28,167 bases of DNA. It comes from a virus. The DNA lies in IMG/VR virus record IMGVR_UViG_3300025644_000265, positions 1 through 28,167 of that record. One strand, written 5' to 3'. The notes under the pieces are model-generated. The model saw only the letters and a list, made by a program, of their open reading frames with translations. It did not search any database and was not told where the DNA came from. Below are positions 317-27,593 of the stretch, piece by piece (the first letter of the stretch is position 1; each line of letters starts with the position of its first letter). The translations under genes were made by a program, and so were the position numbers.

Positions 317-327
317 AAACACTCCTA

Positions 328-413: not shown

Positions 414-421
414 ATGGACAC

Positions 422-626: not shown

Positions 627-649
627 ATATTTAATTAAAGGAAAAAAGT

Positions 650-793: not shown

Positions 794-794
794 T

Positions 795-1462: not shown

Positions 1463-1500
1463 TGGGAATTATAGAGTTTTCAAAACCATAGGAGTTTCTG

Positions 1501-2805: not shown

Positions 2806-2812
2806 TACCTTC

Positions 2813-2841
2813 TTTACAAAAAAGATAAACTTTCGTACAAT
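2813..2841 (+). promoter_or_regulatory. Sigma70-type promoter giving a leaderless terS mRNA
   Basis: TTTACA (2813-2818), a 17-nt spacer and TACAAT (2836-2841) make a strong sigma70-like match. The ATG at 2848 lies exactly 6 nt after the -10 box, where transcription normally starts, and no ribosome binding site precedes it. The mRNA is therefore expected to be leaderless. Confidence 0.65.
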
Positions 2842-2847
2842 AGTCTT

Positions 2848-3399: not shown

Positions 3400-3400
3400 G

Positions 3401-4918: not shown

Positions 4919-5643
4919 TGAAACTAAATAAATCATACAGAGAAAGTGGTGTGTACAAGATAACTAACAATGTGAATGGTAAATTTTACATTGGAAGTTC
5001 CAATAACGTTTATCGTAGATTTAATTCTCATTTGTCTTCTTTACGTAGTAATAGTCATTCAAATGAAATTTTGCAAAGGTCTTGGAATAAATATGGCGAA
5101 GACAATTTTTCCTTCGCTATATTAGAAGTGTGTGATAATAGATTGGAAAGAGAGCAGTTTTTTATAGACGACCTTATTCCAGATTACAATATTTTAAAAC
5201 GAGTTAGAGGAGTGAGAATTACTCCTTTTTCTGAGAAGCATAAGAAAAATCTGTCCTTGGCACAGCAGAATTCTATAATAAAACATTCTGAGAAATATAA
5301 AGAATCTGTAGCAGAAAAGATGCGTAGTTTATGGAGAACTAAGGAATACAAAGAAAAAATGTTAAGTGCTTTCTCTACAGACGAGTATAAGGAAAATCGT
5401 TCTGTATCTTCCAAATCTGTCTGGAAAAGACCAAACACAAGAAAAAATTTTGATGAGTCTTGGAAAACTGGGTTTGTGCAAAAGGGTAGAAAAAATGGTG
5501 TGAAAGATGCTGAGACGGTTTTAAAAATACGGCATTTACATTCTTCTAACAGATACACGTATACAGAATTGAAGGAGATGTTTGGTGTAAGTTATAATAC
5601 AATTAGAAGAGTGATTAGTAGAGAGACTTGGGATTGGGTGTAG
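4918..5643 (+). CDS. GIY-YIG homing endonuclease, NUMOD3-like and HTH tail
   Basis: The first 95 residues form a GIY-YIG nuclease domain: SGVYKITN, then KFYIGSS, a conserved Arg in VYRRFNSH, and a Glu in LEREQFF. A NUMOD3-like segment (TPFSEKHKKNLSLAQ) follows, then basic repeats, and a C-terminal HTH (YTYTELKEMFGVSYNTIRR). This is the usual plan of free-standing phage homing enzymes. The ATG at 4918 overlaps the TerL stop (TAATG) and places the GIY motif at the normal distance. An ATG at 4888 would add 10 residues read inside terL and is less likely. The nuclease half is a clear paralogue of the gene at 13321. Confidence 0.85.
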   Translation: MKLNKSYRESGVYKITNNVNGKFYIGSSNNVYRRFNSHLSSLRSNSHSNEILQRSWNKYGEDNFSFAILEVCDNRLEREQFFIDDLIPDYNILKRVRGVRITPFSEKHKKNLSLAQQNSIIKHSEKYKESVAEKMRSLWRTKEYKEKMLSAFSTDEYKENRSVSSKSVWKRPNTRKNFDESWKTGFVQKGRKNGVKDAETVLKIRHLHSSNRYTYTELKEMFGVSYNTIRRVISRETWDWV

Positions 5644-5648
5644 ATATT

Positions 5649-5849
5649 ATGTGCTATGATGAAAATTGGAAACAGGGAACTTGTGCTTGCGGAAGACCTC
5701 CACCAAAGAAACATTTTTCTGGTGGCGGTATAGTTAGATATGAATACCCAGTCTCAATCTGTACTCATCGTTTAGGAACTTTTCCTGTGTATAGATGGGT
5801 CTATCTTTCTGAAAATGAATCCGAAGTAATAAAAGTAGGTGAAATATGA
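5649..5849 (+). CDS. Small Cys-containing protein of unknown function
   Basis: A 66-aa frame is read from ATG 5649; a TTG 21 nt upstream is possible but weaker. It carries GTCACGRPPPKKHFSGG near the N-terminus (a C-X-C pair) and ICTHR in the middle, so a single metal site made of two Cys plus Cys/His is conceivable. Its TGA overlaps the ATG of the lysozyme gene (ATGA), so the two are translationally coupled. No strong ribosome binding site is visible. It resembles the short Cys-rich proteins at 18692 and 24158 only in general character. Confidence 0.6.
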   Translation: MCYDENWKQGTCACGRPPPKKHFSGGGIVRYEYPVSICTHRLGTFPVYRWVYLSENESEVIKVGEI

Positions 5850-7792
5850 GAATCGGTACTGATACAAGTTTTTGGGCAGAGAATGTAGATTACACAAAGA
5901 TGGTAGCTAATGGGGCAGAATTTACTATTCTTCGTGCAGGGCAGGGTTCTTGGATTGATAATTATTTTCAGAAGAACTATGACGCTTCGGAAGGCATGTT
6001 GCCTAGAAGCACTTATTGGTTTTTCGACCAAAGATACAAACCATCAAGACAAGCAGAGCTTCTTGCTGCTGTATTGAAAGATAATCCTTTAGAAGGTTAT
6101 ATTTGGGCTGATTATGAAAGAGATTATGACAATGCTCCTTACGCATCTTGGGTAGACTTTCACACATTTCTTAGAGAAATTGAAAGATTGATTCCTGAAA
6201 TGGTTGGAAGGATTGGTGTTTATACTCGTTATTATTATTGGAATGAGAAAGTTCCTCAAGATAAGTGGAATTTATTCGAGAAATATCCTTTTTGGGAAGC
6301 TAGATATGAAGCAGATGCTCCATTTGATAAGCCTTTCAAATCTTTGCTTTGGCAGTTCTCTGAGAGAGGGGATGGTGTTGCATACGGTTTGAATAAATAT
6401 GTAAAGACGGCTATTGACCTGAATTATTTCATGGGAACGGATGAAGAATGGGAAATTTTTACTGGTAATATTGAAAATAATGTATTAGAAGTAGCGGAAG
6501 AAGTGGAGCCTGAAATCCTTGCAACGGTTGTCTCTGGTAAAGTTCCTTCATTGAAGGACGGCTCTGGAATAGATTATGAAACTGTAGCAAGGACTTGGGG
6601 AGGTAGACAGTTTCCAGTGAAGAATGTAAAACATCCTGACGATGACGGTTTTATCTATTGTGAGACAACTTTACACGTTCCAGTAGAAAATATTTTCACA
6701 GGTAAAAAGTATGTTACTTTGGAAACTGTAGTAGATGAAGAGCCTCCTGATAATCCTGCTAGACGTTGGAATTGGAAACCTGACCCTAATCGTCCAGAGA
6801 ATTTGTATTCTTGTTATCAAGATAAATGGAAGTACGTAAATGTAAGGGAGGAGCGTGGAAGTGGAAAAATTCTTGCTACAACTTATCGTGGAGCAGTTAT
6901 AGTTGGAGATAGAATTGTTACAGATAGAGGTCAAAAATGGCTTCATACATTATACGTAGAAAATCCTAATATTCCTATAGAAGGGTGGATTTCTATTGAT
7001 GATGCTGATTTACTTGTTTGGGAAGTTCCTGAAAAAACTTTAAATTCCCTTATACCACCTAAAAGCTCCATTCCCGCTGAAATAAAGAGATTTGTTACTG
7101 CTCCTGATGATGGGAAATATTGGTGGTGGGGTTTTGAGACAGATAAGAGATATAGTAAATTATCTGTACCCTATACTGCGGTTTTTGTTAAACCTAATCA
7201 ACAGCGCGTTGTTTTTGTGCAGTTACAAGAACCTACTCAGTTTTTCCAATTTGAGCTTTCGATGCTAGATAACCCTGGGATGCCTATAGCTTATTACGTA
7301 ATGGTTTATTCTTCTCTCATGGCACAGAATCGCGCTTTGACCGATTACACTTCAAGTGAAGATAAGAATTTTACGACAGATTATGTTATTGGTGCTAACT
7401 TAGAACTAAATAATCCTTACTATTTTAAACTTCTTGGTTTTAAAGGTAATATGTACTACGAAGAAAGTAGAGATAGTGACACTGAAATAAGATTTGGTGG
7501 ATTAGACCAAGATAATTTACCTTACCCAGAAGATGTTCATGGTAATCCTAGATATGTTCAGATGTTTACTGTAGTAAAACCAGAAAAGCATCCCGATAAT
7601 AGATTTATGGTCAGCACCAATGCGCCTCAGATTTCTCGTATGATAGATGGGCGTATGGAAAATATAGGGTCAAGTATTATTAATTTAGCGAAACCTTGGA
7701 CATCTAATGTCCTAATAACTGAACTTGAAGAAGTTAATGTTGGAGAAAAGAAACATCTTGTAAATTTATCAAGAGATGTAAATATTTTCTAG
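5846..7792 (+). CDS. GH25 muramidase with SH3-like and unknown C-terminal domains
   Basis: Residues 1-205 form a glycoside hydrolase family 25 lysozyme domain. Features are GTDTSFW with D6, the FTILRAGQG strand, YWFFD (D61), the catalytic pair in ADYERD (D89, E91), GVYTRYYYW, PFWEARY and LLWQFSERGDG, closing with DLNYF. GH25 enzymes cut the MurNAc-GlcNAc bond of peptidoglycan. Residues of about 328-393 look like a bacterial SH3 domain (wall binding), with WLHTLYV and EGWISIDD. The last 250 residues are unrecognised and rich in aromatic residues. At 648 aa it is long for an endolysin and has no signal peptide. It lies between TerL and portal, away from the holin candidate at 16055, so it could be a virion-bound lysozyme. 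The ribosome binding site AGGTGA is good. Confidence 0.85.
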   Translation: MRIGTDTSFWAENVDYTKMVANGAEFTILRAGQGSWIDNYFQKNYDASEGMLPRSTYWFFDQRYKPSRQAELLAAVLKDNPLEGYIWADYERDYDNAPYASWVDFHTFLREIERLIPEMVGRIGVYTRYYYWNEKVPQDKWNLFEKYPFWEARYEADAPFDKPFKSLLWQFSERGDGVAYGLNKYVKTAIDLNYFMGTDEEWEIFTGNIENNVLEVAEEVEPEILATVVSGKVPSLKDGSGIDYETVARTWGGRQFPVKNVKHPDDDGFIYCETTLHVPVENIFTGKKYVTLETVVDEEPPDNPARRWNWKPDPNRPENLYSCYQDKWKYVNVREERGSGKILATTYRGAVIVGDRIVTDRGQKWLHTLYVENPNIPIEGWISIDDADLLVWEVPEKTLNSLIPPKSSIPAEIKRFVTAPDDGKYWWWGFETDKRYSKLSVPYTAVFVKPNQQRVVFVQLQEPTQFFQFELSMLDNPGMPIAYYVMVYSSLMAQNRALTDYTSSEDKNFTTDYVIGANLELNNPYYFKLLGFKGNMYYEESRDSDTEIRFGGLDQDNLPYPEDVHGNPRYVQMFTVVKPEKHPDNRFMVSTNAPQISRMIDGRMENIGSSIINLAKPWTSNVLITELEEVNVGEKKHLVNLSRDVNIF

Positions 7793-13314: not shown

Positions 13315-13320
13315 ATGGAT

Positions 13321-14208
13321 ATGAATAATGTGTCTGGAATATACAAGATAGTAAACTTAGAGAATGGAAGAATTTACATTGGGAGTAGTATAGATATTGT
13401 ACATAGGTGGAATCATCATAAAAGTTTTCTTAGAAGAAATGCTCACCCCAATCCGCTTTTGCAGAACTCATGGAATGTTCATGGAGAAACATCTTTTGAA
13501 TTTAGTATTTTAGAAGAAGTGGTAGATAGGGGATCTATATATGATAGAGAGCAATGGTATTTGGATAATGTAGTTGAGTGGGGACAGGATTATAATTTAT
13601 CTAAATATGCGGATGTACATGCAGAAGGTCGTATTATGTCAGAAGAAATGAAAAGAAAGGTTTCTGCTTTAACCTTAGATGAAGAATTAGAGATACAAAA
13701 TTTGTATAAAGATACTAACCTTTCTACAAAAAAGATTAGTAAAATATATAATGTGAGTAGGCGTACAGTTAGTAGAATTGTAAAGAAAGATTTAGGAAAA
13801 GGTGTTCCAGAACAACGTGAGTTGCTTATACCAAAACCCGACTATAAAGAAGTACAGAACTTGTATATGTCTGGAGATTACACACAACAAGAAATTGGAG
13901 ATATATGGGGAGTGTCTTCTGCTATGATAGGAAAGATTATCCGCAAAGATTTAGGTAGAGGTGTTCCAAAGTATCCAGAAAAAACTTTATCCCGCGCACA
14001 TAAACAAAATATAAAGAACTCTGCTCCACGAGAAGAAGAACACGCTCTTTCAAAAATAAATTGTGATGTTGCTAGAGAGATGCGTAGATTATGGAAAACA
14101 GGAAATTACTCGCAAAGAGAGATAGGAGAGATATGTGGAGGTATTAGTCAACCTACAGTTGGTAGAGTTGTTAGATATGAGTCATGGTTGTGTGAAGATA
14201 AATACTAA
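13321..14208 (+). CDS. GIY-YIG homing endonuclease with three HTH repeats
   Basis: The N-terminus holds a GIY-YIG domain: SGIYKIVN, then RIYIGSS, an Arg or His in HRWNHHK, and a Glu in YDREQWY. It is clearly related to the gene at 4918 over the first 95 residues. Three HTH repeats follow, each of the form LY-X5-T/S-X2-I-X2-I-(Y/W/C)-X-V/G-S: near ISKIYNVSRRTVSRIV, IGDIWGVSSAMIGKII and IGEICGGISQPTVGRVV. These would read a long target site. ATG 13321 is preferred because TGGAATGG gives a usable ribosome binding distance; ATG 13315 sits directly on the GGA. It lies right behind the capsid gene, a typical spot for a free-standing homing enzyme, and is preceded by a structured leader. Confidence 0.85.
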   Translation: MNNVSGIYKIVNLENGRIYIGSSIDIVHRWNHHKSFLRRNAHPNPLLQNSWNVHGETSFEFSILEEVVDRGSIYDREQWYLDNVVEWGQDYNLSKYADVHAEGRIMSEEMKRKVSALTLDEELEIQNLYKDTNLSTKKISKIYNVSRRTVSRIVKKDLGKGVPEQRELLIPKPDYKEVQNLYMSGDYTQQEIGDIWGVSSAMIGKIIRKDLGRGVPKYPEKTLSRAHKQNIKNSAPREEEHALSKINCDVAREMRRLWKTGNYSQREIGEICGGISQPTVGRVVRYESWLCEDKY

Positions 14209-16277: not shown

Positions 16278-17090
16278 ATGAAAATAGCAGTTATTGGGCA
16301 TACTGGTAGGGTTGGCACAGAGTTATTGAAACAAGAAGGATATGTTCCTTTAGACTGTGACATTAGAAACGAAAAAAGTGTAGAGAAGGCGATTACATCA
16401 TGTAAGTGTGATGTGGTCGTCTCTCTTGCTTCTAAGTCATCTCCTGAATGGTGTGAGGACGACAAGAATTTCAAAGATATGTTCAACGTAAATGTTATGG
16501 GGATATTCAATCTTGGAGAAGTAACCAGTAAACTGGGTATCCCAACAATCATTTTATCAACCGATCATGTGTTTAGCGGTAAAAGTTACTTTGATTTTCC
16601 TTTGAAAAGATGGATAAAGAAAGGGCCATATAAAGAAGACTACTATAGGCGTGTTCCTGTAAACCAATATGGTAGAACTAAATTATCTGGTGAGTATATG
16701 GCTGGTGAGTACGACAACATGAAAGTTGTTCGCACTAGCTATTTATTTGACACAGACAGAATTTATCCATTACAAGAATCCTATCCTACTTTCATGTATC
16801 GCTCATTTATGCACATAGAGCATTTTGTTGAGAGTCTTTTGTATTATGTTGATAATATAGAGAAGATGCCAAAAATACTGCATATTTCTGGAAGCCAGAC
16901 TGTAAGTTGGGTGGACTTTATGGCAAGACATTTTCTTGATTGCGGAAGTCTTTTGCCTACATCATCCACTCACAGAAAAGACAAGAAAGAATTTGCTCCT
17001 AGACCACATAAAGCAGGTTTAGACGTATCTCTTTCTGCTAAACTTGGATTGCCTCAGTATTCTTATAGAGATGGATTGGAGTTGCTGTGA
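16278..17090 (+). CDS. RmlD-like NAD(P)-dependent sugar reductase
   Basis: The 270-aa protein is an extended short-chain dehydrogenase. Features are a nucleotide-binding turn GHTGRVG (7-13), the STD catalytic Ser/Thr (94-96) followed by HVFSGKS, and QYGRTKLSGE with Tyr131 and Lys135. The phrase TDHVFSG and the YG-X-TK-X-GE block are typical of dTDP-4-dehydrorhamnose reductase (RmlD) and its relatives. These enzymes reduce a 4-keto-sugar nucleotide. It opens the glycan island and overlaps the next gene by 4 nt (GTGA). The substrate here is unknown; a CDP-dideoxyhexose or dTDP-sugar is possible. Confidence 0.75.
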   Translation: MKIAVIGHTGRVGTELLKQEGYVPLDCDIRNEKSVEKAITSCKCDVVVSLASKSSPEWCEDDKNFKDMFNVNVMGIFNLGEVTSKLGIPTIILSTDHVFSGKSYFDFPLKRWIKKGPYKEDYYRRVPVNQYGRTKLSGEYMAGEYDNMKVVRTSYLFDTDRIYPLQESYPTFMYRSFMHIEHFVESLLYYVDNIEKMPKILHISGSQTVSWVDFMARHFLDCGSLLPTSSTHRKDKKEFAPRPHKAGLDVSLSAKLGLPQYSYRDGLELL

Positions 17091-17755
17091 AAACTACTGT
17101 AGTCATTCCTGCATTTAATAACTACGCCTTACTAAATCAATTATTATTTGATATATATAAATGTGGTGGGAGTAAAGACTTTGAAGTTATTATAGTAAAT
17201 GATAAAAGTACAGAAAGTGAGTATGGTGGAGGGTTGCAGTGGTGGTCACTTCAAGAGATGTTAGATATTTCTGTCATCCACAATGAAGAAAATCTAGGAT
17301 TTCTTCTAACTTCTAATAGGGGGCTAAAAGAAGCGTCTGGAGATGTCATTATTTTGGTGTCTACGGATGTTAGAGTCTACAAAGGATTTTTTGAAGCGAT
17401 TAATGGACGATTGAAAGAGCATCCCAAAACTTTGATTAGTGGAAAGGTTTATACTGAGACTACTGGATGGAATGAGTTTGACGGTAAAATATTTCCCTAT
17501 GCAGAAGGTTTTGTTCTGGCAACCACGAAAGAAGGTTGGGAAGAGTTAGGATATTTTGATGTTAGGTATGCGCCTAATGACTTTGAGGATGTAGATTTAT
17601 CCACTACTGCTTTAGAAAAGGGTTACGAGTTATGGTCACTCTCTCCAGAAGTTGTGATGCACCTTGGGGGTAAGACGATTGGATATGGAGAAGATAGGCA
17701 GAAGGGTACAAGAATAAATCAACAGAAGTTCAGGGAAAAATGGGTGACAAAATGA
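17087..17755 (+). CDS. Family 2 glycosyltransferase
   Basis: A GT-A fold sugar transferase of 222 aa. The N-terminus VVIPAFNNYALL begins the Rossmann-like core, followed by VIIVNDKST, NEENLGFLLTSNRGLKEASGDVIIL and STDVRV (a DxD-type metal site). The C-terminal acceptor region has YFDVRYAPNDFEDVDLSTTALEKGY, with the usual ED in the catalytic place. It transfers a sugar from a nucleotide donor to a growing glycan at the cytoplasmic membrane face or on a protein. It starts with GTG, overlapping the stop of the reductase gene, so translation is coupled. Confidence 0.85.
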   Translation: MKTTVVIPAFNNYALLNQLLFDIYKCGGSKDFEVIIVNDKSTESEYGGGLQWWSLQEMLDISVIHNEENLGFLLTSNRGLKEASGDVIILVSTDVRVYKGFFEAINGRLKEHPKTLISGKVYTETTGWNEFDGKIFPYAEGFVLATTKEGWEELGYFDVRYAPNDFEDVDLSTTALEKGYELWSLSPEVVMHLGGKTIGYGEDRQKGTRINQQKFREKWVTK

Positions 17756-18699
17756 CACAAGGAATTCCGAAAGAAAAAATAAATGTTCTTATGCTTTCGA
17801 TATGGTATCCACTTAGTATGTCTCGATATTGGGAAAATGCTTTCAATAGGAATCCTGATGTAGAATTAAGAACCTGCGGTGTTTATACTGGTTCATGGAT
17901 TCCTTGGCTGGGAGGTCTCAACGTATTGGAGAAATATGCAAAATCTCCTACATATCCGTTGCCATTTAAGCCTAATATTGGAAGAATTCCTTATGAAATA
18001 GTAAATGCGCAATTAGATGGATGGATTCCTGATATTGTGATTGCTGTTGACGCAGGTGTAAATTGGGTAAGTAAGCCATCCGATGGAAAAGTTGTTTCTA
18101 TTTTTACAGATAGCCACTGTTTAGATTATTCTCATGCAAGAAGCGTTTCTGACGTGTCCTATAATATGCACCCGAAGTATGCTCAAGGGGACGATGTACT
18201 CTTGCATTACGCATTTGACCCTGATGTCCACTATCCTATGACAGAGATTGAGAAAGATGCCGATGCAGTACTTATCGGTATGCCCTATCCGCAGAGAATT
18301 GAATGGATAGATAGATTACGATCTTTAGGGATTTCTGTTCTATTTGAGAATGGGCCAATCTTTGATGAGTATAGAGAACTGAATAATAGAGCTAGATTAG
18401 GACTAAACTGGTCATCTTTAGGGGATTTGAACGCTCGTGTACTAGAAATTTCTGCTATGCGTCTTTGTCCTATTATAGATAGAGTTTCTGATTTATCCGT
18501 AATAGGATTTGAAGAGGGGAAGCATTATTTAGGATTCGATAATTTAGATGAAGCAGTTTTAAGAGTTCAATGGGCATTGAATAGTCCACACGAAGCAGAA
18601 GAGATTGCTCTTGCTGCATATAATAAAGTTAACATGGAAGATTTTACCTATGATGCACTTGTTAGTAAAGTGTTGAAGGAGTTTAGATTGGATGAGTAA
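17752..18699 (+). CDS. CgeB-like glycosyltransferase
   Basis: The 315-aa protein looks like the CgeB or Glyco_trans_1_2 type (GT-B fold). The N-terminal part has VLMLSIWYP and a stretch with DIVIAVDAGVNW. The C-terminal signature is LGLNWSSLGDLNARVLEISAM, then LCPIIDRVSDL, and a closing helix pattern with EDFTYDALVSKVL. I start at ATG 17752, which overlaps the previous stop (ATGA); an in-frame ATG at 17740 is also possible. It is part of the coupled island and probably adds one sugar. Its donor and acceptor are not known. Confidence 0.75.
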   Translation: MTQGIPKEKINVLMLSIWYPLSMSRYWENAFNRNPDVELRTCGVYTGSWIPWLGGLNVLEKYAKSPTYPLPFKPNIGRIPYEIVNAQLDGWIPDIVIAVDAGVNWVSKPSDGKVVSIFTDSHCLDYSHARSVSDVSYNMHPKYAQGDDVLLHYAFDPDVHYPMTEIEKDADAVLIGMPYPQRIEWIDRLRSLGISVLFENGPIFDEYRELNNRARLGLNWSSLGDLNARVLEISAMRLCPIIDRVSDLSVIGFEEGKHYLGFDNLDEAVLRVQWALNSPHEAEEIALAAYNKVNMEDFTYDALVSKVLKEFRLDE

Positions 18700-19069
18700 A
18701 AATAATGGTGGTTCTCCCAAGGCATCTACAGACCTATCACCAATTGAAGTTGCTATGAAAACAGCAAAGCCTCCTAATATAATACATCATCGTGGAGATT
18801 TGAATAGAGTTACATCTGACGGAAAGGAATTTGTTAGGCAAGAACATGTATTCATTCCTTCAATTGGTAAAGTGAAATGTACTCCTTATGATAATCATTT
18901 CGTTTATAGAGATGCCAGAAAGTTAGGATGGGTATTGTTTTGTACGTGTGGCTCTCCTGCTGTAGTAGTAAATTACGATGCCTATAAGCAGCATGGTAGT
19001 TCACAAGGAGCTTTACTTGTTTGTAAACATCATACTGATAATAACAAACATCAACCAGTGAATAGGTAA
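18692..19069 (+). CDS. Small protein with a Cys/His metal-binding pattern
   Basis: A 125-aa protein that starts with a Ser/Gly/Pro-rich tail and ends with a possible metal site: FCTCGSP and VCKHHTDNNKH. The middle reads FIPSIGKVKCTPYDNHFVYRD. There is no enzyme motif. It overlaps the previous gene by 8 nt and is followed after 4 nt by the dehydratase gene, so it is part of the same transcription unit. Function unknown. Confidence 0.65.
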   Translation: MSKNNGGSPKASTDLSPIEVAMKTAKPPNIIHHRGDLNRVTSDGKEFVRQEHVFIPSIGKVKCTPYDNHFVYRDARKLGWVLFCTCGSPAVVVNYDAYKQHGSSQGALLVCKHHTDNNKHQPVNR

Positions 19070-19073
19070 TATT

Positions 19074-20006
19074 ATGACTTTCTGGAAAGATAAAAAAGTG
19101 CTAGTTACTGGAGCTACAGGGTTTATCGGTAATCATTTAGTCACTAAGCTATTAAACTCTGGAGCAGAAGTCACTGAGTTTATTCACATAAAAGAATCTA
19201 AACGTCCTAATACTTGGAAATTGTTTGGAGATTTGCTTGATTTAGAATCCTTCTCTGACGCATTGGAAGACCTGAAACCAGACATCGTATTCCATTTAGC
19301 GGCACAGCCCATTGTAGGAATTGCTGGAGAGATGGAGTATGAGACATTAGATGTGAATATACGAGGGACTTACAATCTTCTCTCTGTCCTGAATAAGATT
19401 GGAGTAGGTGGTTATGTACATATCTCTACAGATAAAGTTTATGGGGACACCCCTTTCATAGAAGATACAAGTGATTTGTTAGGATTAGACCATCCCTACA
19501 ACGTGTCTAAATTATGTGGAGATAACCTGGCAACTATGTATGCCAGATTCTTTAATGTTCCTACAACCATTATCAGAAATGCTAATGTGTATGGTGAAGG
19601 TGACCCCCACTTAGAGAGAATTGTTCCTAGAACAGTAAAAAGGTTGGTAGATGGAAAGAACCCCGTTATTAGAGGAGACGGTACAAATCTAAGAGATTAC
19701 GTCTATGTGAAGGATATTGTAGATGGATATGCACTTGCTGCTGAATATGGGTACGAGAAGGATTATAATGTATTCAATTTTGGTGCAGAATGTGCTACTT
19801 CTGTGGGGGATATTGTAAAGATGATTATAAGTCTTGTAAGGAATGATTTATTTATAAATTTTGAACACCAACTAAGAGGAGAAATTCCTAATCAGCATGT
19901 TAATTGTGATCGTGTAAAAGAAGTCCTTGGTTGGACACCTAGCACATCCTTACAAGAAGGATTAGAGAAAACTGTGAAATGGTATCAAAATGAATTCAAA
20001 AATTAG
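19074..20006 (+). CDS. rfbG: CDP-glucose 4,6-dehydratase-like enzyme
   Basis: An extended SDR of 310 aa. It has VTGATGFIGNHL (Gly motif 13-19), HLAAQPIV (74-81), ISTDKVYGD with T119, D120 and K121, and PYNVSKLCGD with Y142 and K146. The AAQPIV and STDK pair are what I expect of CDP-glucose 4,6-dehydratase (RfbG), in which Asp-Lys replaces the Asp-Glu of the dTDP-glucose enzyme. It would make CDP-4-keto-6-deoxyglucose, the substrate of the RfbH-type protein encoded at 20819. It is about 45 residues shorter than the usual RfbG. A different nucleotide-sugar dehydratase is the main alternative, but the neighbour supports this call. Confidence 0.75.
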   Translation: MTFWKDKKVLVTGATGFIGNHLVTKLLNSGAEVTEFIHIKESKRPNTWKLFGDLLDLESFSDALEDLKPDIVFHLAAQPIVGIAGEMEYETLDVNIRGTYNLLSVLNKIGVGGYVHISTDKVYGDTPFIEDTSDLLGLDHPYNVSKLCGDNLATMYARFFNVPTTIIRNANVYGEGDPHLERIVPRTVKRLVDGKNPVIRGDGTNLRDYVYVKDIVDGYALAAEYGYEKDYNVFNFGAECATSVGDIVKMIISLVRNDLFINFEHQLRGEIPNQHVNCDRVKEVLGWTPSTSLQEGLEKTVKWYQNEFKN

Positions 20007-20829
20007 TCTCTTTGGAAATGGTTATATAGGAAAAGAATTTGTTCGTCAGTTTGAGGATGACGTAATTATTCAGGACAAATTCGATTATGCTTCCAGAACA
20101 CCAAAAGTCTTGTATGGGATTAGCACAGTTCACAATTATCATGTAAAGAAAAAACCTTACTTGGATATTGATACTAATTTAACTACTCTTGTTACATTCC
20201 TTGAGAATATGAGACGGATACACGGAGAGAAATCAGACATTACGTTTTTGTCTAGTTGGTTCGTTTATGGACGACAGGACTTTGTTCCTGTAAAAGAAAC
20301 TGCTTGCTGTAATCCTACGGGATTCTATTCTGTCACAAAATATGCTGCTGAGATGTTATTAGCTAGTTACTGCAAAACTTACAATATGAAATACAGAATT
20401 CTGAGACTTTGTAATGTGATTGGTGGAGTAGATGAAAAAGCAGACAGGAAGAAAAACGCTCTCCAGTATATGATTACGGAATTGGTAAAGGGGAGAAAAG
20501 TAGATTATTTATATGATACAGAGTGCTATAGAGATTATATGGATGTTAGAGATGTTGTAAGAGCAATAAAAATCGCTATGACATCAGAATCAGGGGAGAT
20601 TATAAACATAGGTTCTGGAAATGGTCGGATAGTGAAAGAAATAATAGAAGATGTTCATTGTGAAGTACGAGGAATAAATTTATTAGAGCTAATACCCATT
20701 CCAAAATTTCATAAAGATGTTCAAACAGATAATATGGTTTTGGATGTGTCAAAACTAAAATCTATGGGATTTGTTCAGCAATATTCATTACAAGATACAA
20801 TAGAAGATATAATAAAACATGCTAAATAA
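19990..20829 (+). CDS. Second SDR sugar-nucleotide enzyme (epimerase or reductase)
   Basis: The 279-aa extended SDR has FGNGYIG (8-14), LSSWFVYG (87-94) and the catalytic FYSVTKYAAEM with Tyr113 and Lys117. The later RDYMDVRDVVRAI is the typical nucleotide-sugar SDR block. The first acid of the usual STD triad is replaced by Trp (SSW), so it may act as a reductase or epimerase rather than a 4,6-dehydratase. Placed between RfbG-like and RfbH-like genes, it could be the final step of a CDP-3,6-dideoxyhexose route (the place held by paratose or abequose synthase in O-antigen clusters). It overlaps both neighbours (17 and 11 nt). Confidence 0.7.
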   Translation: MNSKISLFGNGYIGKEFVRQFEDDVIIQDKFDYASRTPKVLYGISTVHNYHVKKKPYLDIDTNLTTLVTFLENMRRIHGEKSDITFLSSWFVYGRQDFVPVKETACCNPTGFYSVTKYAAEMLLASYCKTYNMKYRILRLCNVIGGVDEKADRKKNALQYMITELVKGRKVDYLYDTECYRDYMDVRDVVRAIKIAMTSESGEIINIGSGNGRIVKEIIEDVHCEVRGINLLELIPIPKFHKDVQTDNMVLDVSKLKSMGFVQQYSLQDTIEDIIKHAK

Positions 20830-22162
20830 ACTTGGGAAGAGTGCAATTGTAGCAGCCGTAAAACATTTAGTTTCAGGAACGCATAATGAATTTATTCCTG
20901 GAGAAACTTTCATTCCTACACATGGAGCTATGTATAATGGTGGAGATGTTTGGAATGGTGCTGATGTAGCATCTTTGGTGGAGTGTGCTTTAGATAAGTG
21001 GTATACAGAAGGGAAATACGCTAGAGAATATACACGAAAACTAAAGAGCTATCTTAGAAATTCTTCTAAATATATTACACTGTGTAATAGTGGCAGTAGT
21101 GCAAATCTTCTTGCTATTATGGCTATGACCGCTCCTGAGTTTGGTGAAAGAAGAATAAAGCCTGGAGATGAAGTCATAACCACTGCTGTAAATTTCCCCA
21201 CTACCGTAAATGCCATTATTCAAGCAGGAGCTATTCCTGTATTTGTAGATGTAGCTTTAGGTACTTATGTTCCTGATGTTGAAGATATAGCAGAAGCGAT
21301 TGTAGAAGGAAAAACAAAAGCAGTTATTCTTGCTCATACAATGGGTAATGTATTTGATGCAGAAGCTATTGAAGACCTTTGTAGAGAATATAATATATTT
21401 ATGATGTCGGATTGCTGTGACTCTTTAGGTAGCACTTTTCAAGAAAAGCCTGTGGAATCCTACGGAGATATTTCTACCCATTCTTATTATCCCGCTCATC
21501 ATATTTCTGGTGGTGAAGGTGGGGCAGTTCTTACAAATAGTTTTATGATTTCTAAGGTTGTGAAATCTCTTAGAGATTGGGGTAGAGATTGTTTCTGTGC
21601 TACTGGACAGGATGCTGCTTGTGGGAAACGCTTTGAACATAAATTTGAAGGTTTGCCAGAAGGATATGACCATAAATATGTTTACACTCGTTTAGGCTAC
21701 AACTTAAAAATGACAGACTTACAGGCATCTCTTCTGTCTTCACAAATAGATAGGTTGGATGAAATAGTTGAGGCGCGTAGGTATAATTTTATTTATTTGT
21801 TTGAGAAGATGCAAGAGTTTGAGAATTGGTTCATCCTTCCTAGACCTGCTTTAGATAGTGAACCTTCCTGGTTTGGTTTTCCTATCACAATAAAATCTTA
21901 TGCCTGTAACTTCACAAGAGCAGAACTTATAGCTCATCTGGATAAGAATAAAGTTGGAACAAGGCTTCTTTTTGGAAGTAACTTATTAAGACAGCCAGCC
22001 TATAGAGATATTGAATATTTAGTTCAAGATAAACTCTACAATAGCGATATTGTAACAGAAATGACTTTCTGGATAGGATTACATCCAAGCATGACACCTG
22101 AAATCATGGACTATATTATTTCTGTGTTTAGAGAATTCTTAGAAGGGAGAGAAGGATGCTGA
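20819..22162 (+). CDS. rfbH: CDP-4-keto-6-deoxyglucose-3-dehydrase (E1, RfbH)
   Basis: The 447-aa protein is of the DegT/StrS aminotransferase fold but has the signs of the dehydrase E1. In YPAHHISGGEGG (224-235) the PLP lysine is replaced by His227. Asp198 holds the cofactor. Cysteines C200, C258, C260 and C268 give the spacing C-X57-C-X1-C-X7-C, which I recall as the [2Fe-2S] motif of the Yersinia enzyme. The segment from DWGRDCFC to CGKRFEHKFE also looks like RfbH. It removes the C3 hydroxyl using PMP, with electrons from a reductase partner (E3/AscD), and leads to 3,6-dideoxyhexoses. The usual length is about 437 aa. It is preceded by an RfbG-like gene; no E3 gene is in the window. Confidence 0.88.
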   Translation: MLNKLGKSAIVAAVKHLVSGTHNEFIPGETFIPTHGAMYNGGDVWNGADVASLVECALDKWYTEGKYAREYTRKLKSYLRNSSKYITLCNSGSSANLLAIMAMTAPEFGERRIKPGDEVITTAVNFPTTVNAIIQAGAIPVFVDVALGTYVPDVEDIAEAIVEGKTKAVILAHTMGNVFDAEAIEDLCREYNIFMMSDCCDSLGSTFQEKPVESYGDISTHSYYPAHHISGGEGGAVLTNSFMISKVVKSLRDWGRDCFCATGQDAACGKRFEHKFEGLPEGYDHKYVYTRLGYNLKMTDLQASLLSSQIDRLDEIVEARRYNFIYLFEKMQEFENWFILPRPALDSEPSWFGFPITIKSYACNFTRAELIAHLDKNKVGTRLLFGSNLLRQPAYRDIEYLVQDKLYNSDIVTEMTFWIGLHPSMTPEIMDYIISVFREFLEGREGC

Positions 22163-22737
22163 GAGATTTCAGGAATTGGAACATCTTTTTAAACGAACTT
22201 ATAAAAGATGACTACCCATCTCCTCCTGATAAAGGACATACTGCGCTTATGCGAGGCATTATGACAGAATGGATAAGCGGGTTAAAGGGTGTAAAAACTG
22301 TCCTTGATGTTGGGTGCGGAGATGCTGCTATTGCAGAAGGATTTTTCAAGAAATTAGGCATTGAATACACTGGTATCTCAAACGGAATGGATGTAGAGAA
22401 ATTAAAAGGTTTAGGAAAGAATGTTATCAACGGAGACTTTAGTTTCTTAGAAGAGTTTGCAGATGAATCCTTTGGACTTATCTTCTCTCGTCATTCCCTT
22501 GAGCATAGTCCTGCCCCACTGCTTACCCTAATGGAGTGGTACAGGGTATCAGCACACTTCCTATGCCTTGTTCTTCCAAACCCCGCCTATTGGGGGCGTG
22601 TAGGGCAGGGACATTATTCTGTATTGGAAGAAGATCAGTGGAATTTCTTATTGAAGCGTTCTGGATGGAATGTGATATGGAGAAAGAATACTAACCAAGA
22701 GTTTTGGTTTATGTGTGAAAAGGCTAAAAGATATTAG
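22156..22737 (+). CDS. SAM-dependent methyltransferase
   Basis: The 193-aa protein has a class I methyltransferase core: motif I VLDVGCGDA (about 48-56), an acidic turn at YTGISNGMDVE, VINGDFSFLEE, and SRHSLEHSPAP, typical of the Methyltransf_11/23 type. It probably adds a methyl group to a sugar or a small molecule of the glycan. It overlaps the E1 gene by 7 nt and is followed by a glycosyltransferase. The acceptor is unknown. Confidence 0.8.
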   Translation: MLRDFRNWNIFLNELIKDDYPSPPDKGHTALMRGIMTEWISGLKGVKTVLDVGCGDAAIAEGFFKKLGIEYTGISNGMDVEKLKGLGKNVINGDFSFLEEFADESFGLIFSRHSLEHSPAPLLTLMEWYRVSAHFLCLVLPNPAYWGRVGQGHYSVLEEDQWNFLLKRSGWNVIWRKNTNQEFWFMCEKAKRY

Positions 22738-22738
22738 C

Positions 22739-23431
22739 ATGAAAAAATCTGTCAATATTGTGGTGGCTGTTAGATGTCTAAACGAAGAGAAGAATATAGA
22801 AAGATTTTTGCACGGATACGACTTTGCAGATTCTATTGTAGTTTCAGATGGTGGAAGTACAGATGATTCTTTGAACCTGTTATCCAAGAATAAGAAAGTT
22901 ATTATACATAATTATGATGTCGTGGAAAAGTTTCCAACTGGATGTTCGTGGAATCCAGATAATCCTCACATAAATTTTGTGCTAGAAAAAGCGAAGAAAC
23001 TATCTCCAGATTGGCTAATATTGGATGATATGGACGATGTTCCTACTTATACATTGAGAAGAAATGCTAGGAAGGTACTGGAACATACAAGTAAATCTCA
23101 AGTCAATGCTTTTAGGTTATATATGTGGGGAGATAGAGAGTTCTTCCCTTATATGAATAGAGATTTTGATAAGGATTATTTGGCTTTATGGGCATGGCGA
23201 CCTGATGAACTAGACATATACGCAGATGAGCAAAAGCATCATGCTACTTATAGAGGAATATCGTCAGACTATGAAGAACTTAAAGTGCCTATGGCTCTTC
23301 TTCACAAGTCGTGGCATCCAGATACTATAGATGATAAGGTGAAGTGGTATAATTCCGTTGGGATAAAGACAAGTCACCCATTTAATTTTGCAGGAAAACC
23401 GAAAAGGCTTCCTCCTTGGGCAAAGGAATAA
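22739..23431 (+). CDS. Family 2 glycosyltransferase
   Basis: A 230-aa GT-A enzyme: NIVVAVRCLNEEKNIERFL at the N-terminus, IVVSDGGSTDDSLNLL (nucleotide-binding and first acidic turn), and WLILDDMDDVP as the metal-binding DxD-type site. The later part contains ALWAWRPDELDIY and HKSWHPDT. The LNEE..DGGSTDDS pattern is common in family 2 enzymes that work on LPS cores. I start at ATG 22739; an in-frame GTG at 22715 inside the preceding gene would add 8 residues, and neither has a good ribosome binding site. Confidence 0.8.
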   Translation: MKKSVNIVVAVRCLNEEKNIERFLHGYDFADSIVVSDGGSTDDSLNLLSKNKKVIIHNYDVVEKFPTGCSWNPDNPHINFVLEKAKKLSPDWLILDDMDDVPTYTLRRNARKVLEHTSKSQVNAFRLYMWGDREFFPYMNRDFDKDYLALWAWRPDELDIYADEQKHHATYRGISSDYEELKVPMALLHKSWHPDTIDDKVKWYNSVGIKTSHPFNFAGKPKRLPPWAKE

Positions 23432-23432
23432 C

Positions 23433-24161
23433 ATGGCTAGATTGTTTATTACATCATATCAAAAGTCAGGAACTCATCAAATTATGCCCGCTTTTGGAAT
23501 TACGGCGGATATTGTAGACAGAAGTCATAATGGGACTCATAATCTTCCAGATTACGTTGGATTGGAGAATACCATAGATAAGGACGGTATACTGGTAACA
23601 GTAAATGCGCTAGAAGAATTTTATAAAGGAAAATTTGGTCACGTATCTTACCTGCCAGAATATGCAGTAGCTATACAAAAGAAGCCTACTAAAGTTCTTT
23701 TTAATATTAGAGACCCTAGAGACATTATAGTTTCTGAGTATTACAATATGATGAAGCTGTTTAGCAGGGGAAATTCAGATCACGCTCTTTGGAACTTCCG
23801 CATGAAGGATAGTAGAACAGTATATGGTTCTGGAGACCCCATAAAATACCTAATAGAATTTGCATCTTGTAGATGGCTAAATTGGCTAGGGTGGATGAAG
23901 CACGATTTTGTTTATACTGTAAAATATGAAGATTTGAGATTGAACGGAATAGAGACGTTAGAAAAGATAAAAGAGTTCCTTGCTCCTGAAATAACGATAA
24001 ATACAGCTTGGAATTTTGAACATCTAAAACCGAGACACGGAAACCCTACTTTTAGAAGGGGCGTTCCTGGGGAATGGAAAGATGTGTTTACTGACGAACA
24101 CAAGAAACAGGCGGCGGAACAGTTAGGAGCGACAATAAGAAAATTAGGGTATACGCTATGA
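23433..24161 (+). CDS. PAPS-type sulfotransferase
   Basis: The 242-aa protein has the conserved parts of the sulfotransferase fold. SYQKSGTH (8-15) is the 5'-phosphosulfate loop. His70 in FGHVSYLP is the likely base. NIRDPRDIIVSEYY (91-104) is the 3'-phosphate-binding motif with R93 and S101. RRGVPGEWKDVFT (208-220) is the usual closing loop. Such enzymes move a sulfuryl group from PAPS to a hydroxyl of a sugar or protein. It starts at ATG 23433 with AAAGGA upstream; an earlier in-frame ATG (23388) lies inside the preceding gene. In this island it probably sulfates the glycan. A phage sulfotransferase is uncommon. Confidence 0.85.
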   Translation: MARLFITSYQKSGTHQIMPAFGITADIVDRSHNGTHNLPDYVGLENTIDKDGILVTVNALEEFYKGKFGHVSYLPEYAVAIQKKPTKVLFNIRDPRDIIVSEYYNMMKLFSRGNSDHALWNFRMKDSRTVYGSGDPIKYLIEFASCRWLNWLGWMKHDFVYTVKYEDLRLNGIETLEKIKEFLAPEITINTAWNFEHLKPRHGNPTFRRGVPGEWKDVFTDEHKKQAAEQLGATIRKLGYTL

Positions 24162-24388
24162 TAAAATTTAGTATTTTTGACGATTATGCAGATGGTAAGG
24201 ATGAAGCGGAATTGGCTATTTTCAATGCTGTCTGTGAGTGTGGGCATAAACTACATGAGCATGGGTTTGTTGTAGATTGGAATGGTATCCAAAAATTTTG
24301 GGTGTCTCAATGCACTAGCTGTCCAGTAGTGGATGGAGTATTTACGTGTAAAGAATTCAGACTAGCGGAGAAGAAAAATGAAAATTGA
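24158..24388 (+). CDS. Small zinc-ribbon-like protein
   Basis: A 76-aa protein with CECGHKLHEH (26-35), CTSCPVVD (52-59) and CKEFRL (64-69). The pattern of C-X-C-G-H and C-X2-C with a late Cys-Lys-Glu-Phe is common in short phage proteins that bind zinc. It overlaps the sulfotransferase gene (ATGA) and the next gene by 11 nt. It has no enzyme motif; a role in glycan modification is inferred only from its place. Confidence 0.7.
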   Translation: MIKFSIFDDYADGKDEAELAIFNAVCECGHKLHEHGFVVDWNGIQKFWVSQCTSCPVVDGVFTCKEFRLAEKKNEN

Positions 24389-25427
24389 CTTGCTTTGCAA
24401 TGATGGCAGCCCTCTTGAAGTATCAGAGAAAAGTATTTCTGGTGAAGATGGTCGTATGGGCGTAGGAGGCGCGGAGCTATTCCTTCTCACGATTTGTAGA
24501 GCTTGGCATGAAGCTGGACATGAAGTAACTCTTTATAACAGTCCTAAGTATCCTAATAGTTCTGTATTCAATCAACTTCCAGTAGATGCTTTTGTTCCAG
24601 AAGATGAAAGAGATGTTGTAATTGTGTGGCGTTCTCCTAACGATAGACTTACTCCCGATACAGTAGGATTGAAAGTTTGGGTGTCTTGTGACCAACATAC
24701 AAAGGGAGACTTTGGAAAGTTTGCTCAAAAAGTAGATAAGATTGTTACTATCTCAGAACGTCATGCTGATTATTTTAGAGATATTTATGGCATTCAGGAC
24801 ACTATTACCATAGACATTCCAATTCGTATATGGGAGTATGAAGAAAATGAAGTAGAGAAAGTTCCTTATCGTTGTATCTTCAATCATATGCCTGATAGAG
24901 GTGTAATGCAGTTACATGCTGCATGGGCAGAAATCGTTAGAGATGTTCCAGAAGCATCTTTGGTGATTACGTCTGATTGGAGATTATGGAGTGAATGGGC
25001 AGACCCTACTGCTACACAGCAATTCAAGACTACGTTTGCTAGGCTTCCTGGAGTAACGTATCTTGGTGCGGTAAAGAGAGATGAACTTATTAGGCATCAA
25101 CTGGAAGCACAATTGGAGTTGTACCCATCTATTTATGATGAGCTTTTTGGTATCGCTACTGCTGAAAATCAAGTGGCTGGATGTTACCCTATTACAAGTG
25201 ATGTTGGGGCAACAAGGACTACAAACATGGGGACTGTAATTGCTGGAAATGTTTACTCTCCTGAATGGAATAGAGAGTTTGTAGATACAGTAGTGGCTAC
25301 GCTTAGAAATCAAGATAAGTTGAAAGAAAATGCTATGCAAGTACAGAAGTTAGCAAAGGAAAGGTTTGCTTTGGATAGAATCTTAGAAATCTGGAACGAT
25401 AAAGTTTTCAATATTCATTATAAATAA
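24378..25427 (+). CDS. Family 4-type glycosyltransferase
   Basis: A 349-aa GT-B enzyme. The N-terminal domain carries GGAELFLLTICRAWHEAGHEVTLY, the classic GGAE start of family 4. The C-terminal domain has the nucleotide-sugar-binding stretch YPSIYDELFGIATAENQVAG with an E-X7-E motif, followed by YPITSDVGA. These enzymes transfer sugars with retention of anomeric form. It has a GGAGAAG ribosome binding site inside the previous gene. It is a likely link in building the glycan; donor and acceptor are unknown. Confidence 0.85.
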   Translation: MKIDLLCNDGSPLEVSEKSISGEDGRMGVGGAELFLLTICRAWHEAGHEVTLYNSPKYPNSSVFNQLPVDAFVPEDERDVVIVWRSPNDRLTPDTVGLKVWVSCDQHTKGDFGKFAQKVDKIVTISERHADYFRDIYGIQDTITIDIPIRIWEYEENEVEKVPYRCIFNHMPDRGVMQLHAAWAEIVRDVPEASLVITSDWRLWSEWADPTATQQFKTTFARLPGVTYLGAVKRDELIRHQLEAQLELYPSIYDELFGIATAENQVAGCYPITSDVGATRTTNMGTVIAGNVYSPEWNREFVDTVVATLRNQDKLKENAMQVQKLAKERFALDRILEIWNDKVFNIHYK

Positions 25428-25437
25428 AAGGATACAA

Positions 25438-25644
25438 ATGCCGCAAAAACAAAAATCTAGTTCTGGTGGAAATAAGAAACATGGTCGCAATAAAGATAAA
25501 TGTACTCGCTATAGGAATATGCATACTAGAGAAAAGAACAAAGTAAGGCGTGTCTTGAGGTCTTCTGGATTAGAAGAAGCTAAAAGATGGGCTAAAGAAA
25601 ATAACGTTTCTGTTTATTTAAGGAAAATAATTAATGACATCTAA
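25438..25644 (+). CDS. Small basic conserved phage protein
   Basis: A 68-aa basic protein: an N-terminal Ser/Gly/Lys tail, then KKHGRNKDKCTRYRNMHTRE, NKVRRVLRSSGL, and a short helix. The HGRNK-X2-C-X2-Y block followed by EKNK is a pattern I have seen in short phage structural-type proteins, but I cannot name the family. The ribosome binding site is AAAGGA. It has no glycan-related motif even though it sits inside the island, and it overlaps the next gene by 11 nt. Confidence 0.65.
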   Translation: MPQKQKSSSGGNKKHGRNKDKCTRYRNMHTREKNKVRRVLRSSGLEEAKRWAKENNVSVYLRKIINDI

Positions 25645-26782
25645 AAAGATTTTATTTATTACGGATTTAGCCTTTATAGGCTCTGGATACATGTACATTT
25701 CTTTGCCTTTGATGAAGGGCTTAGTTGGATTGGGTTTTGATGTGAAGGCAATTGGGTTAGGAAATGATGGAAGCGAACATGATTTTCCCTTCTCTATCAT
25801 TCCTGCTAAAGATTTTAAGTCTGCTCATGCTATAGCTCATAATCTGCATTTTTTAGATTGGCAACCTGATATAGTTGTAGTTGCTTTAGATGTTCCTCAT
25901 CAAATATTCTTTATTGAGAAACTGAAAGAGTTACCTTCTAAGTATCTTGTCATTACTCCTTTAGAGAATGGCCCTCTTACTATGTCATGGGCAGGTTCTT
26001 TAATGTTTGCTGATGGAGTTTTCTTTATTAGCGAATTGGCAACTAGAGAAGCCAAGAAAGCTGGTCTCACAAAAGCTAAACATATTAAGATTGGTTCTGA
26101 TACAGAAATCTGGCCTGAACGTGATGAAGAAACTAGAAATAGAATTAGAAAATCTATGGAGCTTGACGATAAATTTGTCATCCTTTCTGTAGCAGATAAT
26201 CAAGAAAGAAAGAACTTGTGGGCTGCTATGGATATTGTCTCTAAGGTGAAGAAGTCAGGTGTAGACAATCTGAAATACATTCTTGTGACTAGAGAACATA
26301 GTCATGTAGGGCATAAAATACGAGATTTGGCTTCACAATTAGATATAAATGATGAATTAGTGATTATGGAACGGGGATTACCGCAGGATGTTTTATGGTC
26401 TCTATATGCTGCATCTGATTTATATTTGAATACAAGTAAAGCAGAGGGTCTTGGATTACCTCTACTAGAGGCTATGAGCGTAGGATTGCCAGTAATGGCT
26501 ACTGATACTGGAGCAATGACTGAATTACTTGCTGATGGTCTAGGGACAGTTCTTAGAGGGTTTTTGATTCGTCCTGAGTACGAGTTTACTGATGTTTGGG
26601 GCAATTCTAAGCGTAGTATGATAGACAGAGAAAAAGCGACAGAAGAAATATTATATTGTGTAAAAGATGGTCGTATTATGAAGCACATGTCTGATGCTGC
26701 TTTACATTATGTAAAATCGCTTACATGGGATATTCCCGTAAATCAACTTAAAGAAATGATAGAAGAGGTTTTAGATGAGTAG
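25634..26782 (+). CDS. Family 4 glycosyltransferase
   Basis: The 382-aa GT-B protein begins with ILFITDLAFIGSGYMYISLPLM (an N-terminal Rossmann fold with a Gly turn). In the C-terminal domain it has SVADNQERKNLWAAMDIVSK, ASDLYLNTSKAEGLGLPLLEAM with the E-X7-E pattern, and GLPVMATDTGAMTELL. These are the donor-binding parts of family 4 glycosyltransferases. The gene follows the small basic protein with an 11-nt overlap and AAGGA upstream, and overlaps the last glycosyltransferase gene by 8 nt. Confidence 0.88.
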   Translation: MTSKKILFITDLAFIGSGYMYISLPLMKGLVGLGFDVKAIGLGNDGSEHDFPFSIIPAKDFKSAHAIAHNLHFLDWQPDIVVVALDVPHQIFFIEKLKELPSKYLVITPLENGPLTMSWAGSLMFADGVFFISELATREAKKAGLTKAKHIKIGSDTEIWPERDEETRNRIRKSMELDDKFVILSVADNQERKNLWAAMDIVSKVKKSGVDNLKYILVTREHSHVGHKIRDLASQLDINDELVIMERGLPQDVLWSLYAASDLYLNTSKAEGLGLPLLEAMSVGLPVMATDTGAMTELLADGLGTVLRGFLIRPEYEFTDVWGNSKRSMIDREKATEEILYCVKDGRIMKHMSDAALHYVKSLTWDIPVNQLKEMIEEVLDE

Positions 26783-27593
26783 AAAACGAAACAAGTCAAA
26801 GAAGGAAAAGTTTCTTCTGGATGTAGTAGTTCCTACCGCTGGTAGATACGACATCCTAGAGAAATGTTTAGATGCCTTAGAAACTCAAACAGTGAAAAAG
26901 TTTAACACCTATCTCATTGATGGTAATGATGATATTCCAGACAGAAATCAAAATAGAGAGTTGTTAGAGAAATACAATGCTAAGATGCTTGGACAAAATG
27001 TTGGATACCCTCGTCTCTGTAACGCTGGAATAGCAATGGGGAAAGCTCCTTTAGTTTTGCTACTTACTGATGATGTTGTTCTTTCTGATACTGCTATTGA
27101 ACAAATGCTTGAAGTAATGAAAGATGAAACAATCGGTATGTTAGGAATAAAACTTCTCTTTCCAGAAGACAGTGTAGACCCTGGAAGACCTGCTGGAAAA
27201 GTTCAACATGTGGGTTTGGCTATGGATGTTGAAGCCAATGTCATTCACCCTTTAGTTGGATGGAGCGCAGATAATCCTAAATGTTGTGTGTCCAGAGATG
27301 TTTTTGGGGTTACTGGAGCGTGTTTTGTGGTTCGTAGGGAACTGTTTAAAAAAGTTGGCGGTTTTGATGTTGATTTTGGATTAGGAACTTACGAAGACAT
27401 TTCTCTCGCTTTAGCTATTCGCTCTTTAGGTAAAAGAATATATCTTGATGCAGATATTATTGGGCATCATCATGTGGGAGCTACGGTGCAGAAGAAGAAA
27501 ATAAACTTTTCTTTACATCAAAATGCAAATATATTTAAAGCAAAGTGGTCACAAAGCGGATTATTTTTATACGATAGTTATAAGTTTTATTAG
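26775..27593 (+). CDS. Family 2 glycosyltransferase
   Basis: A 272-aa GT-A enzyme. The highly basic start (MSRKRNKSKKEK) leads to LDVVVPTAGRYDILEKCLDAL, then YLIDGND, NVGYPRLCNAGIAMG, LLLTDDVVL (DxD-type metal site) and GACFVVRRELFKKVGGFDVDFG with a later YEDISLALAI; this GGFDxxFG plus ED layout is the classic acceptor and base region. The end holds IGHHHVGATVQ. It resembles rhamnosyltransferase-type enzymes. It is the last gene of the glycan island; a new promoter follows. Confidence 0.87.
   Translation: MSRKRNKSKKEKFLLDVVVPTAGRYDILEKCLDALETQTVKKFNTYLIDGNDDIPDRNQNRELLEKYNAKMLGQNVGYPRLCNAGIAMGKAPLVLLLTDDVVLSDTAIEQMLEVMKDETIGMLGIKLLFPEDSVDPGRPAGKVQHVGLAMDVEANVIHPLVGWSADNPKCCVSRDVFGVTGACFVVRRELFKKVGGFDVDFGLGTYEDISLALAIRSLGKRIYLDADIIGHHHVGATVQKKKINFSLHQNANIFKAKWSQSGLFLYDSYKFY

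Follow-up and report, generated by a model that had tools for sequence, protein, structure and literature searches.

A phage gene cluster that most likely encodes a variant CDP-3,6-dideoxyhexose branch

Three overlapping genes and the identity of E1

The stretch of DNA analysed here, IMG/VR record IMGVR_UViG_3300025644_000265 (28,167 nucleotides, the window in what follows), covers 28 kb of a virus contig and carries on its plus strand three open reading frames (ORFs) that overlap one another. In order, they encode a putative cytidine diphosphate (CDP)-glucose 4,6-dehydratase of a divergent RfbG type (SDRb, 19074-20006, 310 amino acids), an extended short-chain dehydrogenase/reductase (SDR) that is a putative C-4 ketoreductase (SDRc, 19990-20829, 279 amino acids) and E1, the pyridoxamine 5'-phosphate (PMP)/[2Fe-2S] CDP-4-keto-6-deoxyglucose 3-dehydrase of the RfbH/AscC/DdhC family (20819-22162, 447 amino acids). 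They belong to a larger sugar cluster on one strand (16278-27593), in which E1 and a total of three SDRs are joined by up to six glycosyltransferases, one methyltransferase and one sulfotransferase. This cluster follows TerL (3401), a GH25 lysozyme (5846), the portal gene (7820) and a putative capsid gene (11958), the last of these lying approximately 3 kb upstream on the same strand. A preliminary description had placed the three genes in a phage structural region, and this stands as far as TerL and the portal are concerned, both of which were matched; the capsid is another matter, as no family model matches the 11958 gene and its putative assignment as the major capsid gene comes from size and position. 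Two sister contigs of the same virus were available as well, G001 (33.8 kb) and G002 (67 kb, approximately 98% across the cluster). Judging from sequence, we believe that the three genes most likely form a real but variant CDP-3,6-dideoxyhexose branch, whose nucleotide and final sugar we infer.

The protein encoded at 20819 is a genuine E1 (RfbH/AscC) 3-dehydrase by family, with predicted [2Fe-2S] binding. Namely, in the profile comparison of RfbH/AscC with other DegT families that had been proposed as a check, it passes the NCBIfam RfbH equivalog model NF011936 with 557.6 bits against a cut-off of 423, and its top PDB match by sequence is the E1 structure 3bcx, at 437 bits. It had been claimed that His227 takes the place of the pyridoxal 5'-phosphate lysine in this protein and that its cysteines are spaced as C-X57-C-X1-C-X7-C. 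As read in YPAHHISGGEGG, the spacing is exact (Cys200-X57-Cys258-X1-Cys260-X7-Cys268), and in the sequence alignment His227 pairs with His220 of Yersinia E1 (PDB 3bcx), the very residue that is mutated to lysine in PDB 3bb8. Given the two scores above, this agreement in signature residues is not due to chance. What is more, the predicted fold (mean predicted local distance difference test score, pLDDT, of 88.7) has 3bcx as its top Foldseek match (template modelling score 0.89/0.95, E=7e-49), the two proteins sharing 43% identity across the fold match, the histidine in place of lysine and the cysteine spacing. In a first comparison, the set of one histidine and four cysteines was common to the E1s of 79 of the 80 sampled cellular loci and was also found in 17 viral sequences, the window's E1 counted.

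The reading of this protein as an E1 and not a true aminotransferase is borne out by phylogeny, too. In a tree of 171 sequences, it is nested among the His/4-Cys proteins, outside both the Lys-type aminotransferases, among which the proposed phylogenetic check could have placed it, and a Cys-less, ColD-like group; some inner nodes of this tree are weak, and the node of 104 sequences with nearly all cellular RfbH has a support of 0.945. An identity as a Lys-type aminotransferase is thus ruled out by residues, tree and fold. ColD, the GDP-4-keto-6-deoxymannose 3-dehydratase, resembles the window's E1 in fold, being the next fold match (E=2.5e-30), and in the histidine that replaces lysine, but it lacks the Fe-S cysteines and scores 143 bits as against 437 for 3bcx; this identity is ruled out by the four cysteines, the tree and the fold. 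A gene of the ColD-like kind does occur in Synechococcus phage ACG-2014f (L108, 5896-7089), where an "aminotransferase" with the histidine and no Fe-S cysteines lies downstream of two SDR genes, with a sulfotransferase nearby. Compared with known members of the E1/RfbH/AscC/DdhC family, the window's E1 differs in being phage-borne, in having neither an E3 reductase nor the cytidylyltransferase RfbF alongside, and in its long branch.

The two SDR partners of E1

SDRb carries the motifs STDKVYG and Y142NVSK, i.e. [ST]DK...YxxxK, and TDK...YxxxK is the signature of CDP-glucose dehydratases (Table 1 in PMC8987622). In the SDR tree, it falls within an RfbG clade of 74 members (support 1.0), apart from RmlB, where it is grouped with 47 canonical RfbGs and with 21 proteins that we call type-2; all 73 readable members of this clade have TDK or SDK. 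The type-2, or SDRb-type, gene occupies the slot of RfbG in 21 of the 80 bacterial E1 loci, and it is found in these 80 loci only where canonical RfbG is absent. In 16 of the 21 it lies directly upstream of E1, with RfbF near most; at L047, L099, L055, L043, L082 and others, a divergent second-type CDP-glucose 4,6-dehydratase sits between RfbF and RfbH. We consider SDRb to be a putative CDP-glucose 4,6-dehydratase of the type-2 kind, but with a branch this long it may act on another nucleotide.

The third SDR that had been noticed beside E1 is indeed there, and its linkage to E1 across viruses is strong. SDRc has SSWFVYG in place of the dehydratase acid/base pair, which rules out a dehydratase role, and keeps YxxxK (YSVTK); it should therefore reduce or epimerise. 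Its clade in the SDR tree is virus-only (support 1.0, 15 viral members). No member of the family was present among the 80 bacterial E1 loci, and none was found at 1e-30 in 40 E1-bearing bacterial genomes, a search run without a positive control. On the viral side, SDRc occurs in six of 50,697 phage records, all six of which also have an E1 relative of the 4-Cys class (the cysteines were read directly in S-H68, RB11-B and AG-345-D19). A separate IMG/VR scan seeded with SDRc found a 4-Cys/His E1 at 67 of 78 loci, abutting SDRc at 51, where the contigs were not deduplicated and the 67 are not independent events. At one viral locus (L223), the gene order is that of the window, with a type-2 dehydratase followed by SDRc and E1. 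From this linkage and from its motif, SDRc is probably the C-4 ketoreductase that finishes the sugar.

Proposed pathway and alternative explanations

The interpretation that we favour, with a probability of about 60%, is that these genes encode the central steps of a CDP-3,6-dideoxyhexose branch carried by the phage, fed by the host and with its glycan most likely on virion proteins. In particular, SDRb would convert host-made CDP-glucose to CDP-4-keto-6-deoxyglucose, from which E1, with PMP and its [2Fe-2S] cluster, would remove the C-3 hydroxyl via His227, using electrons supplied by the host, through a ferredoxin or flavodoxin reductase or an E3 of its own, and not by a phage E3. Reduction of the 4-keto group by SDRc would then yield a CDP-3,6-dideoxyhexose; as the cluster has no recognisable 3,5-epimerase, the sugar would presumably belong to the D series. 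Finally, the neighbouring glycosyltransferases, methyltransferase and sulfotransferase would assemble and decorate a glycan that includes this sugar at a late stage of infection, with virion proteins as the most likely target.

Which steps would be left to the host? RfbF, the glucose-1-phosphate cytidylyltransferase, is absent from G001, G002 and G003, and an E3-type reductase domain (NAD_binding_1) is found on none of G000, G001 and G002, the genome being possibly incomplete in both cases. Among 89 viral E1 loci (L005-L015, L104-L107 and L109-L182), RfbF is near E1 at seven, as opposed to 67 of the 80 bacterial loci. Its absence is typical of viruses, and therefore CDP-glucose would come from the host, or another nucleotide would be used. 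E3, on the other hand, is near E1 at none of the 89 viral loci and at just seven of the 80 bacterial ones, a count that rules out its absence as proof of a dead pathway; together with the precedent of SpnQ, an E1 homologue that takes electrons from ferredoxin or flavodoxin reductases (PMC8987622), it suggests that the lack of E3 is not disabling. A motif scan of the window, G002 and the viral E1 loci revealed no viral ferredoxin that could act as the electron donor. In comparison with the ddh/rfb operon of Yersinia and Salmonella (RfbF-RfbG-RfbH, with RfbI), the window likewise has an RfbG-clade dehydratase upstream of E1, but it is without RfbF and RfbI, its dehydratase is of type-2, and a virus-only SDR lies between the dehydratase and E1.

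A number of findings weigh against the proposed branch. SDRb scores 157 bits with the RfbG equivalog model TIGR02622 and thus fails its cut-off of 278, so that of the earlier claim that an RfbG-like dehydratase precedes E1, the TDK motif and the clade (support 1.0) stand and the equivalog match does not. That said, the type-2 proteins scanned, taken from cellular RfbG slots, are likewise below this cut-off. SDRb is also a long branch, at 1.2-1.3 substitutions per site, and its position inside the RfbG clade is poorly supported (0.37-0.46). The fold of SDRc is that of a generic extended SDR, with epimerases, dehydratases and reductases matching alike, and its reaction is one that we infer. The missing RfbF and E3 belong here as well, as does the fact that most other viral E1 loci combine E1 with a dehydratase of the TDE type (similar to those for deoxythymidine diphosphate, dTDP), so that a viral E1 need not be CDP-specific. 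Finally, the distance between E1 and TerL across viral contigs is not significantly below random (P ~0.09, a hand estimate), and the idea that the sugar cluster is nearer to TerL than expected by chance in other viruses was set aside.

On Gram-negative bacteria, 3,6-dideoxyhexoses are immunodominant sugars of the cell surface, whose identity they usually define. The alternative that survives best keeps the chemistry and changes only the target: the sugar would be placed on the host surface, in an O-antigen, a capsule or another envelope glycan, where it would change the serotype or block superinfection. We take this possibility seriously, while doubting it somewhat. Such sugars do occur in bacterial O-antigens (PMC8987622), phages do modify their hosts to exclude other phages (PMC11436027), and the glycosyltransferases differ between strains: the genes at 17087-18699 and 26775-27593 are 78-89% identical (approximately 10-22% different, three genes), whereas SDRb, SDRc and E1 are 98-100% identical between those same strains. 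The variable genes look as if they had been exchanged as cassettes. However, no multi-span membrane protein of the flippase, polymerase or ligase type and no lipopolysaccharide (LPS)-specific gene was recognised in the cluster, which lies amid structural genes, the G002 proteins scanned included no recognisable integrase, and the host itself may be without LPS; the label "O-antigen" for the window's sugar is an assumption. A late set of soluble, fast-varying glycosyltransferases fits virion glycosylation slightly better than host conversion, and the virion is thus the slightly better supported target.

The host was also sought through TerL, the capsid candidate and E1. The matches of TerL are partial (approximately 23-31% identity) and scattered over many phages, and the capsid candidate at 11958 gave no match in the same host-directed search. 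The window's E1 groups with two viral and two Patescibacteria-type loci (0.92, on a long branch), and in 380 Patescibacteria genomes the best E1 has approximately 50% identity, making it the closest cellular E1 sampled, which is too distant to assign the host to this phylum.

An unlikely alternative is that the same enzymes act on a dTDP- or other nucleoside diphosphate (NDP)-4-keto-6-deoxy sugar and yield a 3-deoxy sugar that is not CDP-linked, with E1 resembling SpnQ in its use of nucleotides. This is what one could expect from most viral E1 loci, where a TDE-type dehydratase (STDEVYG) accompanies E1 and RfbF is lacking, and from Synechococcus phage S-H68, whose cluster has an RmlB above the cut-off (381.7 against 365.1 bits); RfbF is also missing from the available contigs of the window's virus. 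At L105, L106, L107 and approximately 30 IMG/VR loci, too, E1 lies near a TDE-type and not a TDK-type dehydratase, which suggests that in viruses the E1 family may act on dTDP sugars. The dehydratase of the window itself, however, is TDK and branches with RfbG and not RmlB, and the window showed no dehydratase of the TDE type.

Less probable still is a branched or epimerised, yersiniose-like product, in which case SDRc would be an epimerase or a branch reductase. Genes for YerE-like, thiamine diphosphate (ThDP)-dependent enzymes are near E1 at 44 of the 89 viral loci, and YerE extends CDP-4-keto-3,6-dideoxyglucose, which E1 and its reductase produce, by a two-carbon unit (PMC12247030). Yet no ThDP-type gene was recognised in the window or, by the ORF list, on the 67-kb sister contig, and SDRc and the ThDP enzyme tend toward mutual exclusion: they rarely occur together at viral E1 loci (2/15 versus 42/74, Fisher P=0.0035), as expected if both are alternative fates of one keto sugar. 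This supports two uses of one intermediate, with the window taking the unbranched route. As for the branched route, a 192-kb viral contig (L005, 8164-17415) has RfbF, a canonical RfbG (459 bits), E1, a ThDP enzyme with JanthE 8rph as its top PDB match (390 bits, versus 220 for acetolactate synthase), an acetaldehyde dehydrogenase and a 4-hydroxy-2-oxovalerate aldolase, and looks like an almost complete pathway of the ErwE/YerE type. The dehydrogenase and the aldolase are present at L175 and L179 too, and the YerE/acetolactate-synthase-like genes near viral E1 are in many cases broken into two ORFs (for instance at L006 and L010).

Viral relatives and genomic surroundings

The presence of such genes in a phage had been called unusual, which it is not. 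An E1-seeded scan of IMG/VR gave at least 583 viral E1 relatives, Synechococcus phages carry E1, in one case annotated as CDP-4-dehydro-6-deoxy-D-glucose 3-dehydratase, and viral rfbH/ascC/ddhC has been named as an auxiliary metabolic gene (AMG) in two surveys (PMC10653327, PMC11295528), the relevant passages of which share the gene family by name and contain no pathway context, SDRc partner or absence of E3. In Synechococcus phages S-H68, S-B05, S-B43, RB11-B and RN05-S, the E1 relative has approximately 33% and SDRc approximately 37% identity to the window, and their islands, like the window, gather further SDRs, glycosyltransferases and methyltransferases in one cluster; the histidine and four cysteines of E1 were checked in S-H68 and RB11-B. 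Beyond what the window has, these two carry RmlB (of the dTDP type), an RmlC-like epimerase and a small cytidylyltransferase, additions that would suit an ascarylose-like L sugar. An assembly error that joined bacterial DNA to a viral contig is a very improbable source of the cluster, even if contigs with LPS islands were left out of one survey's AMG catalogue (PMC11360552): in contigs of other metagenome records the cluster genes are flanked by the same phage genes, with an identical E1, and SDRc and E1 occur together in genomes of isolated Synechococcus phages.

In other words, the E1 gene in phages is already known, and the SDRc-E1 pair occurs widely in viruses and has scarcely been described; no description of it as a module was found in the literature searched. 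We tentatively suggest that E1 and the virus-specific ketoreductase SDRc may form a conserved two-gene viral module that runs on host electrons without a viral E3, while a second set of viral E1s would feed YerE/ErwE-like enzymes to make branched sugars, both kinds ending up on virions or infected cells in many phage groups. A common viral route to 3,6-dideoxyhexoses that has a candidate reductase of its own and dispenses with the usual cytidylyltransferase and electron partner would provide testable enzymes and a concrete handle on the target of phage glycosylation, be it the virus particle or the host, and would draw attention to the "LPS islands" omitted from an AMG catalogue (PMC11360552).

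The rest of the cluster, all on the plus strand, begins with SDRa (16278-17090), an RmlD-like NDP-4-keto sugar reductase (RmlD_sub_bind, 101 bits; TIGR01214, 77 bits, below cut-off) that may belong to a further sugar branch. It is followed by two strain-variable glycosyltransferases, one of GT2 (17087-17755, PF00535, 78.9-81.8% nucleotide identity to strains L004/G002) and one of the Glyco_trans_1_2 family (17740-18699, PF13524 at 47 bits, 78.3% / 89.4% nucleotide identity). Downstream, an S-adenosylmethionine methyltransferase (22156-22737, PF08241) overlaps the end of E1 and precedes a weakly matched, putative GT2-like glycosyltransferase (22715-23431, PF13704 at E=0.003, below cut-off), a sulfotransferase (23388-24161, PF00685, 46 bits), two GT4-type glycosyltransferases (24378-25427, PF13439 / PF00534 barely above cut-off; 25634-26782, PF00534, 65 bits) and a GT2 glycosyltransferase (26775-27593, PF00535, 80.4% nucleotide identity to G002). 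A contig extending the genome past the end of the window was looked for and none was found.

On G002, the head genes and the sugar cluster are accompanied by presumed tail genes, assigned by size and order, and by a replication block with a family A DNA polymerase, a UvsX-like recombinase and a DnaB-like helicase. Several DNA methyltransferase genes lie on the minus strand amid the presumed tail-side genes (195-5891 in the reverse complement of G002). In the window, two ORFs that by eye resemble GIY-YIG homing endonucleases follow the terminase (4888-5643) and the putative capsid gene (13315-14208), and the GH25 lysozyme domain is part of a 648-amino acid protein (5846-7792) encoded between terminase and portal.

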